This document shows, in pieces, positions 5,219 through 48,004 of a stretch of 48,006 bases of DNA. Source of the DNA: a bacterium (GTDB lineage: Bacteria > Cyanobacteriota > Vampirovibrionia > Gastranaerophilales > Gastranaerophilaceae); contig JAFXYZ010000020.1 in assembly GCA_017541465.1 (NCBI GenBank), positions 1 to 48,006 on the forward strand, given 5' to 3'. Below the pieces are notes generated by a model that saw only the letters and a list, made by a program, of their open reading frames with translations, ran no database searches and was not told the DNA's origin. The stretch's first letter is position 1. Each line of letters opens with the position of its first letter. A program made the translations under genes and the position numbers.

Positions 5219-5227
5219 GGGGGGGGG
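5219..5227 (-). repeat. Homopolymeric C9 tract in pilin 1 reading frame
   Basis: Nine G on the plus strand, read as nine C in the pilin message, 12 codons after ATG 5258 (codons GTT CCT A + C run). Nine is one too many to reach the pilin frame; eight or eleven would be in frame. Confidence 0.85.
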
Positions 5228-14006: not shown

Positions 14007-14072
14007 AAATATTAATCAGAGAATTAAGAGAGGTTTTTAGTATGTTTAATTTCAAAAATAAACTTGTTCCTA

Positions 14073-14081
14073 CCCCCCCCC
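14073..14081 (+). repeat. Homopolymeric C9 tract, in frame (pilin 2)
   Basis: Nine C after GTTCCTA, eleven codons from the ATG. With nine the upstream ATG is in frame with the pilin domain (reads VPTPPLQN). Confidence 0.85.
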
Positions 14082-14134
14082 TACAAAATTATTTAAAATA
14101 TATTTCGCTATGGAAAAACAATATAAAGGATTTT

Positions 14135-14224
14135 CCTCCCCTTGATAGGAGAGGTCAGGAGGGGTGTCGATTCAGAAATAATTGTTTATTCAACCCTCTC
14201 CCTAGCCCTCTCCCCAGGAGAGGG
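14135..14224. repeat. 90-bp inverted REP doublet inside pilin 2 leader
   Basis: 14135-14166 has stem CCTCCCC/GGAGAGG then tail TCAGGAGGGGTG. 14191-14224 has tail CAACCCTCTCCCTAG then stem CCCTCTCC/GGAGAGGG. The order is hairpin-tail...tail-hairpin. The 90 bases keep the reading frame and are translated (PPLDRRGQEG ... NPLPSPLPRRG). The same doublet, also 90 bp, is in pilin 4. Confidence 0.8.
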
Positions 14225-14861
14225 AACGTGTTGGGCTTCACTCTCGCAGAGGTTCTTATAACTCTCGTTATCATCGGTGTTATTGCTGCAATAACCATTC
14301 CGAGTTTAATCAATAAAACAAATAATTAGGAAACAATATCAAGGCTCAAGAAAGCCTATTCTACAATGGCTCAGGCAACAAACCTGATTATTTCAGAAGA
14401 AGGTCCTGTAAAAACCTGGACTACATCTGCTGATAATATATTTAATCTATACAAAAAAAAATTATTCAATGCAAAAGAATGTGGATCAAGTTCTGGTTGT
14501 TTTAGCGGACCATATAAATATCCAAGTGGTTCCAATACTTCTAATTGGAGTACTAGACAAGATTTTTATAATTTAGTTCTATCTGATGGAGTAATTATAG
14601 GTTTCGGTGGCGATAATACTGAGTTTAAGTCAAGTTGTGACTTAAATGTCGCAATATCGGGAGATAACAATGTTTGTCAAATAATTGTTGTAGATACAAA
14701 TGGAAGTAAAAAGCCAAATACGGTTGGAAAAGATACATTCATGTTTATTTTAACAGAAAAAGGTCTTCTTCCTGCAGGCTGTCAAAATAACAATACTTGT
14801 CCAGGAGCAGGATTCGGTTGCACTTGCAGAATAATCAGAGAAAGTTCTGTAAAATATATGT

Positions 14862-14885
14862 AAATGTCAGGCAATACCCGACATT
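14862..14885. terminator. Hairpin after pilin 2
   Basis: Stem AAATGTCRGG/CCCGACATTT around GCAATA, directly at the pilin stop codon. It resembles the GTCAGGCA palindrome at 103-123. It could end the pilin message, although no long T run follows. Confidence 0.45.
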
Positions 14886-29678: not shown

Positions 29679-29924
29679 TACACATCCCTCAAAATAAACC
29701 TTTTAACATGTATTTTACCAAAAGCGAATTAAAAATGGTAATTATTAATAATAACAAATATATATAAAAAGAAATTCGGGGAATTTTCGTTACAAAACTA
29801 CATATTAAGAGAGAAAAAACATAAAGAAAATAAAAAATCTGCCGATTTGAGAAAAAGTAAAGTTAAAATGTTTACTTTTGAGAAAGAATCATTATTAAAA
29901 AGGTAAGTGCAAACGGAGGTAAGT

Positions 29925-30491
29925 ATGGGTTTAATAAATGGTCAAACACTATTTACGGGTGTCGGTTCAAATCTGAGCGCGACATATTCCACATTGTTAT
30001 CGACAATGAGTAAATCAGGGAAAGGACTTACTCTATCCGATTTATCGGGCACACTGACTCCCTCAACACTCACTGCTCTCGGAACTAACAATGTTTTTCT
30101 GAGTTATCTCAAAAATAATTTTTCCGCTCTTGATGTTGACGGAGACGGGGAAATCACCTCAAAGGATATGGATACAACCCTTGATAATATACAGTCTCAG
30201 GGGCTGACTTATAATGAAATTCAGCAATTGTGCTCCAATTCGGGAAATTCCACCCTGTATAACACAGTGCTTGAATACTTTAACCAGATTGACACAAATG
30301 GTGACGGAAAAGTAACAAGCGCAGAGATTACCGCCTTTAACTACAAATGCGACCGCTTCAGAATGGAGCAGAAGTATCACAGTTATAAGGCAACAAGTGC
30401 AAGTCTTTTTTACTCTGACGGAGTTGAAAACGACACCTCCAGTGTACTCGATTCGATGATTCCGGATATGAACGCAAAATCGAATAATTAA
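29925..30491 (+). CDS. EF-hand calcium-binding protein
   Basis: A 188-residue S/T-rich protein with two canonical EF-hand loops, DVDGDGEITSKD (about 69-80) and DTNGDGKVTSAE (about 124-135), spaced 55 residues apart as a pair. No signal peptide. The start is ATG 29925 behind CGGAGG with a 5-base gap; the six codons upstream have no ribosome site. Calcium sensing or buffering is likely; no partner is evident. A terminator follows. Confidence 0.85.
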   Translation: MGLINGQTLFTGVGSNLSATYSTLLSTMSKSGKGLTLSDLSGTLTPSTLTALGTNNVFLSYLKNNFSALDVDGDGEITSKDMDTTLDNIQSQGLTYNEIQQLCSNSGNSTLYNTVLEYFNQIDTNGDGKVTSAEITAFNYKCDRFRMEQKYHSYKATSASLFYSDGVENDTSSVLDSMIPDMNAKSNN

Positions 30492-30609: not shown

Positions 30610-32436
30610 ATGTTTCAGAATTACAAACGATTTTTCAAATTTATAAAATATTTCGGAGCGGGATATAAAATAGAACTTGTAAAGATGCTCATTTTTGCGT
30701 TTTTCACAAGTTTTCTTGAATTTATAAGCATCGTACTGGTTTTCCCGTTCATCATTATGCTTGTAAACCCGGGACAGTTTATCCACAGTATTTTCGGACA
30801 ATATATAGCGGAGCATCTGAAATTTTCCATCAGCTCCGACAGTATGAATAAAGACATTTTAATCATAATTGCCTGCACGTTTATCACTCTTATTATCCTC
30901 AAAAACATTTTCAGCATAACAATTCTCTACTGGCAAAACAGAATTATTCATAAATGGTGCTTATCCGTTAAAAATCAGATAATGAAATTCTTTCTCTATT
31001 CCCCTTATGAACTTGATTTAAAGAAGGCAAAAACTGATTTTATACAAAAAATCACCGATAATATCGACAAAGTCTTTGATTTCTTCGTGTTTAAAGTCAT
31101 TATTCTGACCTCAAACACAATAGTTGTAGCAATAATCTTTGCGCTTCTTGTCTGGCTGATGCCTGTTTATACCGTTATAGCTATTGTATTCTTTACCGTT
31201 GCCTCATCGCTTCAGAATAAATTCTTCAAAAACTGGGGCAGGAAAATTGCGGATAAGAAATATGAACTTGTTGCTGGCGAATATAACTCTGTTATGGAAA
31301 GTATGGGACACGTCAAAGACATCAAAATCAACGGATGCCAGGAATTTTTCTTTTATGTTTACAGAAAAATATCCGAAAAAATCATTCCTCTTGATGAGAA
31401 ATTGAACCTTATTCCGATTATTCCACAACATGTCATTGAATTAATCTTTATTTTTACAATGGTTATCTTCGGTGCGGGGGTATTTTTGCAATACGGAACG
31501 GACTCAACCAGCGTTGCACTAACACTGACTATCGTTGCGATTTCAATTTACAGAATGGCTCCTCAGATTTATAAGAGCCAGGTTTGTATGAACTATATGG
31601 AATTTTATAAGGACAGAGTAGATGATCTGTTTGAGGTGTATGAAGAATACCGGAGACACATAGACGAAATGCAGACACCGACAAAAGAAAAGATGAGCTT
31701 TAATGATTCTGTCATTGTTCGGAATTTGAATTATTCCTATAATACTTCCGCTCAGATACTGAAGGATATAAATTTTGAAATTAAGAAGGGTGAATTTGTC
31801 GGAATTATAGGGCTTTCAGGAGCAGGAAAAAGCACTCTGGTCGATTGTCTTTTAGGCTTACTCGGGTATCAGGGTGAAATTTTGGTTGACGGGGTAAAGC
31901 TGGATAACCAAAATACAAGAAAATTCCAGAATATTATAGGCTATGTAGCACAGGAAATACATACAATCGGAGGTGATGTTGCCGATAACGTCGCCTGGGG
32001 TGTAAAAAGAGAGGAGATAGATGAAGAAAGGGTTATCGAAAGCCTCAAAACCGCCCAGATTTATGAAATTTTAGAAGAAAAAGAGGGAATACATACCCCG
32101 ATAAGAGAGGATGGAACAGGTTTATCGCAGGGACAAAAGCAGAGAATAGGCATCGCAAGAGCACTGTATAGAGAACCTGAGATTATCATTCTTGATGAGG
32201 CAACTTCAAACCTCGATGTCAAAATCGAAAACGAATTAACCCAGATTATGACTGATTTGAAGGGCAAAAAGACAATTATTGCTATTGCTCACAGAATAAG
32301 CACACTTGTAAACTGCGATAAAATCATATATCTGAAAGATGGAAATATAGTTGATATAGGAACATTTGAAGCACTCAGCGAAAAACATCCAGACTTCAAG
32401 GAAATTATTTCTTTATCAAGAGTGAAAATTGATTAA
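30610..32436 (+). CDS. ABC exporter, fused permease and ATPase (MsbA/PglK type)
   Basis: A 608-residue half-transporter. Residues about 20-330 hold six transmembrane helices of the type I exporter fold. The nucleotide-binding domain has Walker A GLSGAGKST (about 400-408), signature LSQGQKQR (about 502-509), Walker B IIILDEAT and an H-loop (IAHRI). It must work as a homodimer, since no second half lies nearby. Lipid, lipid-linked oligosaccharide or peptide are possible cargoes; resemblance to PglK-type flippases is by layout. The ATG has a modest AAGGCAG ribosome site. Confidence 0.92.
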   Translation: MFQNYKRFFKFIKYFGAGYKIELVKMLIFAFFTSFLEFISIVLVFPFIIMLVNPGQFIHSIFGQYIAEHLKFSISSDSMNKDILIIIACTFITLIILKNIFSITILYWQNRIIHKWCLSVKNQIMKFFLYSPYELDLKKAKTDFIQKITDNIDKVFDFFVFKVIILTSNTIVVAIIFALLVWLMPVYTVIAIVFFTVASSLQNKFFKNWGRKIADKKYELVAGEYNSVMESMGHVKDIKINGCQEFFFYVYRKISEKIIPLDEKLNLIPIIPQHVIELIFIFTMVIFGAGVFLQYGTDSTSVALTLTIVAISIYRMAPQIYKSQVCMNYMEFYKDRVDDLFEVYEEYRRHIDEMQTPTKEKMSFNDSVIVRNLNYSYNTSAQILKDINFEIKKGEFVGIIGLSGAGKSTLVDCLLGLLGYQGEILVDGVKLDNQNTRKFQNIIGYVAQEIHTIGGDVADNVAWGVKREEIDEERVIESLKTAQIYEILEEKEGIHTPIREDGTGLSQGQKQRIGIARALYREPEIIILDEATSNLDVKIENELTQIMTDLKGKKTIIAIAHRISTLVNCDKIIYLKDGNIVDIGTFEALSEKHPDFKEIISLSRVKID

Positions 32437-32504: not shown

Positions 32505-32533
32505 TTGTCAAAATCGGGAATATTTGATAATAT
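32505..32533 (+). promoter_or_regulatory. Conserved pilin promoter (pilin 3)
   Basis: -35 TTGTCA (32505-32510), 17-base spacer with CGGGAATATTTGA, extended -10 TGA-TAATAT (32528-32533), then AGAGAGGA before ATG 32565. Confidence 0.75.
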
Positions 32534-32564
32534 ATTAAAATAATAGAGAAGAGAGGATATTTTT

Positions 32565-33321
32565 ATGTTTAATATAAAAAACAAATCAGTTCCTACCCCC
32601 CCCCTACTTCTTTTACAAAAGAAGTAGGCAAGAAAACTTTCGTAGTTTTTCAAGTTCTATCAATAATTTACTAAATCATTGTGATGGTAAAAGTAATGGT
32701 TTCACTCTTGCAGAGGTTTTGATAACTCTTGTCATCATCGGAGTAATTGCAGCAATAACTGTTCCTACTTTAATTAATAAGACTAATAATCAGGAATATG
32801 TATCAAAATTAAAAAAAGCATACTCAACTCTTGCACAGGCAACTAACTTGATTATTGCGGAAGAAGGTCCAGCTACAGAATGGGCAACATCTCGAAGTAA
32901 TGTTTTTAATCTATACCAAAAAAAATTAGTAAATGCTAAAGTTTGCGGAACGAGTTCAGAATGTTTACCACAGGGTGGTTTTTATAAGAAATTAAATGGT
33001 GATATAGATACATATAATGTTAGTTCTGAAGCATACCATAAACTTGTATTATCAGATGGTGTTCAAATTATTTTTAGTGATGCAACAAATTTATGCAATA
33101 TTAATTTTGGTTATACAGAGAATCCTCAATATTGTGCAAAAATTTTTATTGATATAAATGGAGCAAAAAAACCAAATACAATGGGAAGAGATTATTTTGG
33201 TTTTGCTCTAAAAAAGAATTCTTTAGTTCCTATGGGATGTGAACCCAGTGCAAATTGTGAAACATCTGCTGGAAGTATTTGTACCTGCAAAGTTCTTCGC
33301 GAAGGTGCGATAAATTATTAG
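32565..33321 (+). CDS. Type IV pilin-like gene (pilin 3), out of frame by one C
   Basis: ATG 32565 has the family promoter and ribosome site and begins MFNIKNKSVPTPPL. With nine C the frame ends at TAG (32625-32627) after 20 codons. The pilin frame (GFTLAEVLITLVIIG, then a 180-residue head with paired cysteines, DINGAKKPNTMGRD and a C-terminal CTCKVLREG) is open from just upstream of the C tract to TAA 33321, but contains no ATG, GTG or TTG before the TTG inside EVL. One C fewer would join ATG to the pilin with a leader of about 45 residues. So it is either phase-OFF or frameshifted. The head is close to that of pilin 2. Confidence 0.82.
32596..32604 (+). repeat. Homopolymeric C9 tract, out of frame (pilin 3)
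   Basis: Nine C after GTTCCTA. Eight or eleven would connect the ATG to the pilin frame. Confidence 0.85.
32604..32627. repeat. Perfect palindrome in pilin 3 leader
   Basis: 11-bp arms CTACTTCTTTT/AAAAGAAGTAG directly after the C tract. It is a different repeat family from those in pilins 1, 2 and 4, but inserted at the same place. Confidence 0.7.
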
Positions 33322-33331
33322 TATTCATTCT

Positions 33332-33365
33332 CCCGCCCTGGACGGGGCGGGCAGGGGTGGGGTGA
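33332..33365. repeat. Left inverted repeat of the DUF559 unit
   Basis: Hairpin CCCGCCC/GGGCGGG then tail CAGGGGTGGGGTGA. It matches the right copy (33749-33782) in inverted orientation at 31 of 34 bases. Confidence 0.85.
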
Positions 33366-33398
33366 TTTTCTTTAAGAGAAATGCTACAATACATAATT

Positions 33399-33740
33399 AT
33401 GAATAATTTAAAACAAAAAGCACAAAAACTTAGAAAAAACACTACACCTCAAGAACGAAAACTATGGACTATATTAAGGAACAGACAATTTTATGGTCAT
33501 TATTTCAGACGTCAATTTATTATTGAACCGTATATTGTCGATTTTGTATGCAGAGAACAAAAAATTATTATTGAATTAGATGGTTCTCAACACCTTCAAC
33601 CATCAGATATTGAATATGATAAAAAAAGAACTATATATTTAAATTCATTAGGATATACAGTAATAAGATTTAAGAATAATGAAATTGATAATAATATTGA
33701 GGGTGTTTACGATTATTTAAAAACTGTTTTTAGAATTTAA
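33399..33740 (+). CDS. DUF559 endonuclease-like protein between inverted repeats
   Basis: A 113-residue DUF559 protein, related to Vsr and PD-(D/E)XK nucleases. The family start LRKNTTPQERKLW (about 11-23) and the core FRRQFIIEPYIVDFVC...KIIIELDGSQH (about 38-66; D, E-x-D and Q-H of the active site) are intact, ending VIRFKNNEI (about 88-96). ATG 33399 fits the family N-terminus; ATG 33381 would add six residues. A possible TACAAT -10 lies just before it. The gene is tightly bracketed by 34-base inverted repeats (33332-33365, 33749-33782), making a unit of about 450 bases. It is more AT-rich than ppdK next to it. I infer a mobile or repeat-associated nuclease. Confidence 0.85.
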   Translation: MNNLKQKAQKLRKNTTPQERKLWTILRNRQFYGHYFRRQFIIEPYIVDFVCREQKIIIELDGSQHLQPSDIEYDKKRTIYLNSLGYTVIRFKNNEIDNNIEGVYDYLKTVFRI

Positions 33741-33748
33741 AATTTATT

Positions 33749-33782
33749 TCACCCCACCCTAACCCGCCCCGTCCAGGGCGGG
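33749..33782. repeat. Right inverted repeat of the DUF559 unit
   Basis: Tail TCACCCCACCCTAA then hairpin CCCGCCC/GGGCGGG. The layout (tail then C-rich hairpin) is that of the repeats in the pilin leaders and at 36627, 42035 and 46260. Confidence 0.85.
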
Positions 33783-33890
33783 AATATACTTTCTTAATAC
33801 TTTTAAAACTCTGTTGAGTTCAAAACATGTTCATGGTAGTCTTTTGGCATAGGTTACTCAGTAGAGTTAATTAGAAAGTTAGGAGAAATT

Positions 33891-47152: not shown

Positions 47153-48004
47153 TTATTTTTTTAAGTAATCTTTAAAATCAACTTTTCTGCCGTTTATATT
47201 AACAGGTGCTCCATAACCAATACAAACCTTGCCTCTTTTAAGGGCATTATCTTGTTCATTTTTATTATCAATAGCAAAGTAAACAATACCATCTACTCCT
47301 AATAGAAATGAAAAAATATCTTTACCAATTAAGTTTGGACCTTTTTCACAATTTGTATCCACTGAAATATGTGCATCATCGAACCCTATAGCCCAAGCCG
47401 ACCAACATATTCCATCAACTGTTACCCAAGAATATCTTTGGGCAAGTAAATTTTCCTGATCAGGAATAACGCCATATCTTTCATATTCTTTAGGCCAACA
47501 ACCGTCATCATTTACACAAGTTTTTATAACCTTCATCTGTTTTTTAAAGGCTTCTGCTCTGCCATCTCGAGCATTTACATCTCCTGTTTCCCCTGAAGGC
47601 CAATTGCAGCCAGACCAACCACCTTTTTCTGTATATTGTCCCAAATTATCATAAGCTGCTCTTTTCCAAGCTTCACTGGCAACCTGATAGGCTTTTTTGA
47701 AAGACGTTTTGTATTGTTGTTCTCTGACATTATTCATAACTGTCGGAACGGTTATTGCCGCAATTACACCTATAATAACGAGTGTAATCAAAACCTCTGC
47801 GAGAGTGAAACCCAACACGTTCCCTCTCTGTGGGAGAGGGCTGGGGAGAGGGTTGAATACCCCATTATTTCTAAACAGACACCCTTCCTGACCTCTCCTA
47901 TCAAGGGGAGGAAAACCCTTTATATTGTTTTTCCATAGCGAAATATATTTTAAATAATTTTGTAGGGGGGGGGTAGGAATGAATTTATTTTTGAAATTAT
48001 ACAT
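47153..48004 (-). CDS. Type IV pilin-like protein (pilin 4), C-tract in frame
   Basis: A 283-residue prepilin. From ATG 48004 the leader MYNFKNKFIPTPPLQN, nine-C tract, REP doublet (NPLPSPLPQRG) and VLGFTLAEVLITLVIIG are almost identical to pilin 2. After about residue 90 the head is different (six cysteines, VDTNCEKGPNLIGKD as the shared motif, ending KVDFKDYLKK). Its ribosome site and promoter lie beyond the window. Prepilin peptidase should cut before F, discarding a leader of about 70 residues. This is the only one of the four that is both in frame and free of stops. Confidence 0.88.
   Translation of the reverse strand: MYNFKNKFIPTPPLQNYLKYISLWKNNIKGFPPLDRRGQEGCLFRNNGVFNPLPSPLPQRGNVLGFTLAEVLITLVIIGVIAAITVPTVMNNVREQQYKTSFKKAYQVASEAWKRAAYDNLGQYTEKGGWSGCNWPSGETGDVNARDGRAEAFKKQMKVIKTCVNDDGCWPKEYERYGVIPDQENLLAQRYSWVTVDGICWSAWAIGFDDAHISVDTNCEKGPNLIGKDIFSFLLGVDGIVYFAIDNKNEQDNALKRGKVCIGYGAPVNINGRKVDFKDYLKK
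47822..47911. repeat. 90-bp inverted REP doublet inside pilin 4 leader
   Basis: Two facing units: 47822-47855 (stem CCCTCTC/GAGAGGG, tail CTGGGGAGAGGGTTG) and 47880-47911 (tail CACCCTTCCTGA, stem CCTCTCC/GGGGAGG). Length and layout equal those of pilin 2. Confidence 0.8.
47965..47973 (-). repeat. Homopolymeric C9 tract, in frame (pilin 4)
   Basis: Nine G on the plus strand, read as nine C after ATTCCTA. In frame with the pilin domain. Confidence 0.85.

Follow-up and report, generated by a model that had tools for sequence, protein, structure and literature searches.

Candidate slipped-strand switches in the prepilin leaders of a large pilin gene family of Gastranaerophilaceae

In Campylobacter and Helicobacter, contingency genes carry poly-G/C tracts of ~8–12 and belong to various surface gene families that are unrelated to one another. 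A different arrangement is found in Neisseria gonorrhoeae, where each of the ~11 opa genes is switched by CTCTT pentamer repeats in the part that codes for the leader peptide (PMC3745409). Known switching tracts of Neisseria also include single-base runs, such as G9–15 in pilC and C10–12 in lgtG (PMC5320596), and gonococcal pilin itself is diversified by gene conversion of silent pilS cassettes into one expressed locus, pilE (PMC3547852). Here we analyse pilin 3, a type IV-type prepilin gene at positions 32565–33321 of a stretch of 48,006 nucleotides (nt; contig JAFXYZ010000020.1 of assembly GCA_017541465.1, hereafter the window) from a Candidatus Gastranaerophilales metagenome-assembled genome (MAG), together with its paralogues in that host genome and its relatives in the family Gastranaerophilaceae. 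These genes probably form a multigene, independently switching slipped-strand (contingency) system whose switch lies in a disposable prepilin leader, and the window copy, in the assembled majority sequence, reads as OFF.

All elements of pilin 3 lie on the forward strand. A −10-like promoter element common to the family (TTTGATAATAT, 32523–32533) and a ribosome binding site whose sequence, GAGAGG, is conserved across it (32551–32556) precede an ATG at 32565, from which the leader reading frame (MFNIKNKSVPTPP..., 32565–32627) enters a tract of nine C (32596–32604). With nine C, this frame reads MFNIKNKSVPTPPLLLLQKK and ends after 20 codons at a TAG (32625–32627). The pilin frame, one base on (+1), is open from 32578 through the tract to its stop at 33319–33321 and reads ...LPPPYFFYKRSRQENFRSFSSSINNLLNHCDGKSNG-FTLAEVLITLVIIGVIAAIT... 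to that stop. It holds no ATG, GTG or TTG before the hydrophobic helix (GFTLAEVL), which rules out an alternative start codon for pilin 3 ahead of the helix; nor was one seen by eye in the corresponding part of the frame in those out-of-frame relatives that were inspected. With the start segment open in one frame and the pilin in another, two open segments thus meet at the tract, the putative frame switch. A perfect 12-bp hairpin (CCTACTTCTTTT/AAAAGAAGTAGG, 32603–32628) overlaps the end of the tract, and here begins a variable leader insert (YFFYKRSRQENFRSFSSSINNLLNHCDGKSNG, 32605–32700), which stays in the pilin frame until the Gly that precedes the cleavage site; the mature pilin body (FTLAEVLITL...INY) occupies 32701–33318. 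An earlier, sequence-only reading of this stretch had described the same promoter, ribosome site, start codon, nine-C tract and early TAG, and an open pilin frame lacking a start of its own, and each of these is found where that reading placed it.

We identify the protein as a pilin from its N-terminal signature and from the model as a whole, since a Foldseek search of the whole pilin model against the PDB gave no match at E ≤ 0.001. The prepilin methylation signature is recognized by both PF07963 (29.6 bits, cut-off 21.2) and TIGR02532 (27.6 bits, cut-off 16.3), and the features of a type IV-type prepilin are present, namely a G/A-F cleavage site, a Glu at +5 and a hydrophobic helix, with FTLAEVLITL invariant in the family. 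AlphaFold2 predicts for the mature protein a long N-terminal helix (4–56) and a beta domain, with a predicted local distance difference test (pLDDT) score of 88, and a profile of 30 paralogues picks up GspG, PilA and geopilin by their helices. The host genome has genes for a prepilin peptidase and for assembly ATPases. In its pilin leaders the last residue ahead of cleavage is often Ala (Ser in the relative G266), not the usual Gly, which calls for a permissive prepilin peptidase.

The host assembly (2.117 Mb in 74 contigs, 99.7% complete) contains 74 loci with FTLAE[VT]LIT, 63 of which show the same plan as pilin 3: an ATG, a leader of about ten codons, typically MFNxKNKxVPTPP, and then a C tract. 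These 63 copies occupy all three frames, 27 being in frame, 24 one base off and 12 two bases off. Apart from two in-frame copies in which the tract is interrupted, the tracts (61 paralogues) are of 7–10 C, almost all 8 or 9. Such runs are concentrated in this family beyond chance: 65 of the 68 runs of at least eight C in the genome lie in pilin leaders, 60 of them followed by a pilin body and five in pilin-type leaders that either run into a contig end or are rearranged, and only the remaining three are unrelated to pilins. No typed copy is without a ribosome site and an ATG of its own, and of the 62 scored copies nearly all, in-frame and wrong-frame alike, have a −10-like element 29–40 nt before the ATG, the other main version in the family being TGTGGTATTATAA. 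The copies are dispersed over many contigs and do not form one array.

Upstream of the tract the open frame is that of the ATG; downstream it is that of the pilin. The inserts between tract and body differ greatly in length and origin, and yet over the 5,079 nt of this segment in 61 copies there are no stops at all in the pilin frame, with 65 and 237 interrupting the other two; all 40 of the inserts of at least 60 nt have stops in both other frames. That only the pilin frame is free of stops argues that translation has been selected to pass the tract in this frame. The bodies of the wrong-frame copies are without premature stop in 36 of 36 cases (one runs beyond the end of the stretch examined), and the ratios of nonsynonymous to synonymous substitution rates (dN/dS) for pairs of two OFF copies, 0.26–0.34, fall inside the range of other pairs (0.15–0.37). 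From these sequence comparisons, wrong-frame copies appear to be under purifying selection just as in-frame copies are. The sequence-only reading had argued that pilin 3 is not decaying from the intactness of its own frame to the stop, a view to which the whole family now lends weight.

Frame, moreover, behaves as if it were drawn at random. On a pilin tree of 61 tips, a minimum of 16 changes is required to account for the ON/OFF states (shuffled mean, 19.6). Whether a tract has 8 or 9 C is independent of which of these lengths is in frame for the copy concerned (Fisher p = 0.40), and the 25 of 61 uninterrupted tracts that are in frame are compatible with one third (p = 0.22). This uncoupling of length from frame, with frames in the thirds expected by chance, is expected from random slippage but not from a fixed programmed frameshift; a fixed out-of-frame relation with a fixed slip site is absent from the host genome, although, as described below, one is found in the genus g7.

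The mechanism that we propose on this basis would work as follows. Each of ~60 type IV-type prepilin genes would have its own promoter, ribosome site, start codon and leader C tract, and slipped-strand mispairing, occurring at a high rate in living cells, would add or remove one C and so join the start codon to the pilin frame or cut it off, thereby controlling expression. Since each gene would be switched on and off independently, a population would show many combinations of displayed pilins. Prepilin peptidase (PilD) would cut off the leader and leave the same mature pilin at any in-frame tract length; with the leader removed in this way, neither the length of the tract nor an insert in the leader would alter the mature protein.

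As at known contingency loci, the tract lies in the 5′ coding region, where it sets the frame, and the OFF frame is intact beyond it. The tract lengths resemble the ~8–12 of Campylobacter and Helicobacter, although here 65 of 68 long C tracts belong to one pilin family and MutS is present. They also match those of known switching tracts such as pilC and lgtG. As with the poly-G tracts of Neisseria pilC1 and pilC2 (PMC5320596), the frame would decide the expression of a pilus-related gene; pilC, however, encodes a pilus-associated protein and not a pilin, exists in two copies and is unrelated to the present family. The closest parallel is with opa, likewise a scattered multigene surface family with a repeat in the leader-coding part of each member and with three frames, the independent switching known for opa being here proposed. 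The differences are nonetheless considerable: a single-base C or G tract in place of a pentamer, pilins in place of outer-membrane barrels, a prepilin leader in place of a Sec signal, ~60 genes as opposed to 11, and a host lineage of uncultured, non-photosynthetic cyanobacterial relatives, in which switching is predicted from sequence. Membership in the Opa family itself is ruled out by the pilin domain and the single-base tract, and the likeness is one of function between unrelated proteins. With pilE/pilS the family shares type IV pilin diversity from many copies per genome, except that its copies are each equipped with start signals and a frame switch of their own.

The same design occurs elsewhere in the family. 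A pattern scan of 84,980 species returned 41 stretches, 40 of them from MAGs titled Candidatus Gastranaerophilales and the last from a gut MAG with a match to a genome in this family. Among 288 family genomes, poly-C leaders were found in 11 (six genera) and poly-G leaders, in the same place, in 27 (ten genera), both counts being lower bounds, since pilins more than 30 nt beyond the tract fall outside the patterns. The poly-G tracts are of 7–12 G (in G007, G021, G041, G206, G229 and others; L212–L341), and even G021 and G057, which had been picked as switch-free control genomes, carry this version. In the relative G060, one set of otherwise identical leaders comprises two copies with 11 C and three with 12 C, and a second set one copy with 11 C and four with 12 C; one 13-C copy there is in frame. 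Unequal C counts in identical leaders are direct evidence of a change of length alone, between paralogues. The sequence-only reading had proposed that tract lengths be compared in related genomes, and G060 supplies a difference of one C.

Several observations weigh against switching as the whole explanation. Each species is represented by one genome, so that variation in tract length is known between paralogues and not at one locus; the same gene in two tract lengths, sought at contig ends, was not found in any such overlap, and a search for other strains among viral contigs gave no match. MutS (MutS1) is encoded in the host genome, which offers no repair defect to explain high slippage: loss of mismatch repair is thereby ruled out as its cause, and a switching rate as high as that of Campylobacter or Helicobacter cannot be assumed. 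In the relatives, where putative start codons were assigned from ribosome site and openness, in-frame copies are far below one third (2 of 43 typed poly-C and 13 of 112 poly-G copies, among paralogues that are not independent). Finally, in the genus g7, a tract of exactly 10 G is shared by 50 of 58 copies, which all stand in the same wrong frame; the flanks of the tract come in three length combinations modulo 3, of which the sum is identical in 55 of 58 copies. With flanks that vary and a sum that is conserved, the net frame itself seems to have been selected, the usual length being one base off. A near-fixed 10 G and a conserved net frame would not be predicted from random switching alone, nor was a conserved out-of-frame majority state, which extends to several related genera, foreseen by the sequence-only reading.

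For genera with this conserved out-of-frame state there are, in our view, two readings, default-off switching and programmed slippage of ribosome or polymerase. We entertain tentatively a more general form that takes in both, in which dozens of prepilin leaders per Gastranaerophilaceae genome would carry a run of G or of C with flanks selected so that the usual run length is one base out of frame; either an occasional slip of the DNA or a low level of slippage by ribosome or RNA polymerase would then grant each cell only a few of its dozens of pilins, in a lineage-wide lottery that is mostly off.

The first of the two, a refinement of slipped-strand switching, is possible although a little more doubtful than the general form. 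It holds that the OFF state is a selected default, the commonest tract length being one base off so that each pilin is on in a minority of cells. The commonest length in relatives is indeed out of frame with an in-frame length one step away (11 G in G021, 10 G in G229, 11 G in g7, 13 C in G060). Against this, in-frame copies are many in the host genome (27 of 63) and in G041 (6 of 11), and the uniform frames may partly reflect the leaders' shared ancestry, which explains part of the uniformity in g7, where the three flank combinations could stem from only two events.

The second, that the out-of-frame arrangement is functional as it stands because a few ribosomes or RNA polymerases slip on the C/G run and give a low output of pilin, we consider unlikely. 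Slippage is plausible on runs of GGG or CCC codons, the net frame and tract of g7 are as uniform as such a device would demand, and G021, G007, G229 and G266 are likewise nearly uniform and out of frame. The perfect hairpin behind the tract would suit this reading too, and it is found in at least 13 copies, the window copy and at least 12 others; most copies of the family, however, are without it. The host genome holds all three frames with length uncoupled from frame, the direction of slippage needed differs among genera and between the identical leaders of G060, and even within g7 the exceptions include in-frame copies, namely four of the five with 11 G and the only one with 8 G. The random mixture in the host genome, together with G041, favours DNA slippage as the probable common basis.

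That the wrong-frame copies are unexpressed cassettes which donate sequence by gene conversion, as pilS does, is very improbable. The family is large, with a conserved N-terminal coding region and diverse bodies, as would suit donors, but pilS copies lack the start, and here a ribosome site and an ATG go with each typed copy and a promoter-like element with nearly all, and the copies lie on many contigs and not in a single array; silent cassettes of the pilS type, without promoter and start, were rejected for these start and promoter-like signals. Hardly credible at all are decaying pseudogenes or homopolymer assembly errors, since, common though one-base homopolymer errors are and often as contigs end at these repeats, the wrong-frame bodies are intact and similarly constrained, random errors would not put nearly all long C tracts into pilin leaders, and the design recurs, with C or with G, in independently assembled genomes.

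Slipped-strand switching thus stands as the best-supported reading, as the sequence-only reading had suggested in calling pilin 3 a candidate phase-OFF gene: about 60 paralogues share the tract, in all three frames and with intact wrong-frame bodies, and the combination of a fixed tract length in relatives with a decayed head was not found.

The window holds three further members of the family. L093 (4364–5258, reverse strand) has a nine-C tract at ~5219–5227 and a body in frame 1, out of frame, and L095 (47153–48004, reverse strand) a nine-C tract at ~47965–47973 that is in frame with an intact body. L094 (14042–14329, forward strand, within 14042–14863) is in frame through its nine-C tract (~14073–14081) and yet stops after 95 codons, so that an in-frame tract is no guarantee of an intact pilin. 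Directly behind pilin 3 is a gene for a restriction-endonuclease-like DUF559 protein (33381–33740; PF04480, 136 bits), flanked by a 35-bp inverted repeat (33331–33365 and 33749–33783, 91% complementary) as in a small mobile unit. Just upstream, an open reading frame with EF-hand/dockerin-type motifs (29907–30491) adjoins an ABC transporter (30610–32436).

Many leaders in the host genome hold inserts between tract and cleavage site that resemble translated interspersed repeats (e.g. L068, L083, L090 and L097). They include PHPNPLPRRGN, CHSELVSES, SPSPSEREA and TLTPALSQRRG, are always open in the pilin frame and give leaders of up to ~75 residues. Palindromic repeats inserted in frame in coding genes are known as Rickettsia palindromic elements; the likeness noted is one of form, and in the pilin family the inserts are confined to the leader, downstream of the tract and ahead of the cleavage site. 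The assembly of the window genome is a draft in which many contigs end at these repeats, and contigs C9, C22, C32, C37, C50, C55 and C61 of the host genome (G000) start or end inside pilin leaders or tracts, which indicates that the family disrupts short-read assembly and that its copy numbers may be underestimates. Pilins with FTLAEVLIT reach 122–140 copies per genome in the same family (e.g. G040, G026), and other genera have none or one.

A paper on the pili of this lineage lists pilA, pilB, pilC, pilT and pilD without mention of switching (PMC5877343). In the open-access literature we found no report of phase variation or pilin switching in Gastranaerophilales or Melainabacteria, in agreement with the sequence-only reading, which knew of no slippage genes described for the lineage. 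Within that literature, the system would, if our interpretation is right, be the first slippage phase variation described for it, and among the largest single-family sets of such switches known. Placing the switch in the segment that is cut off would be an efficient design, in that the same mature protein would result from any in-frame tract length, and the use of C in one set of genera and of G in another suggests that the design has evolved more than once. The conserved out-of-frame state in relatives raises the testable question of whether their tracts are tuned for rare expression. The finding suggests that these gut relatives of cyanobacteria may resemble mucosal pathogens in varying their surface fibres from cell to cell.
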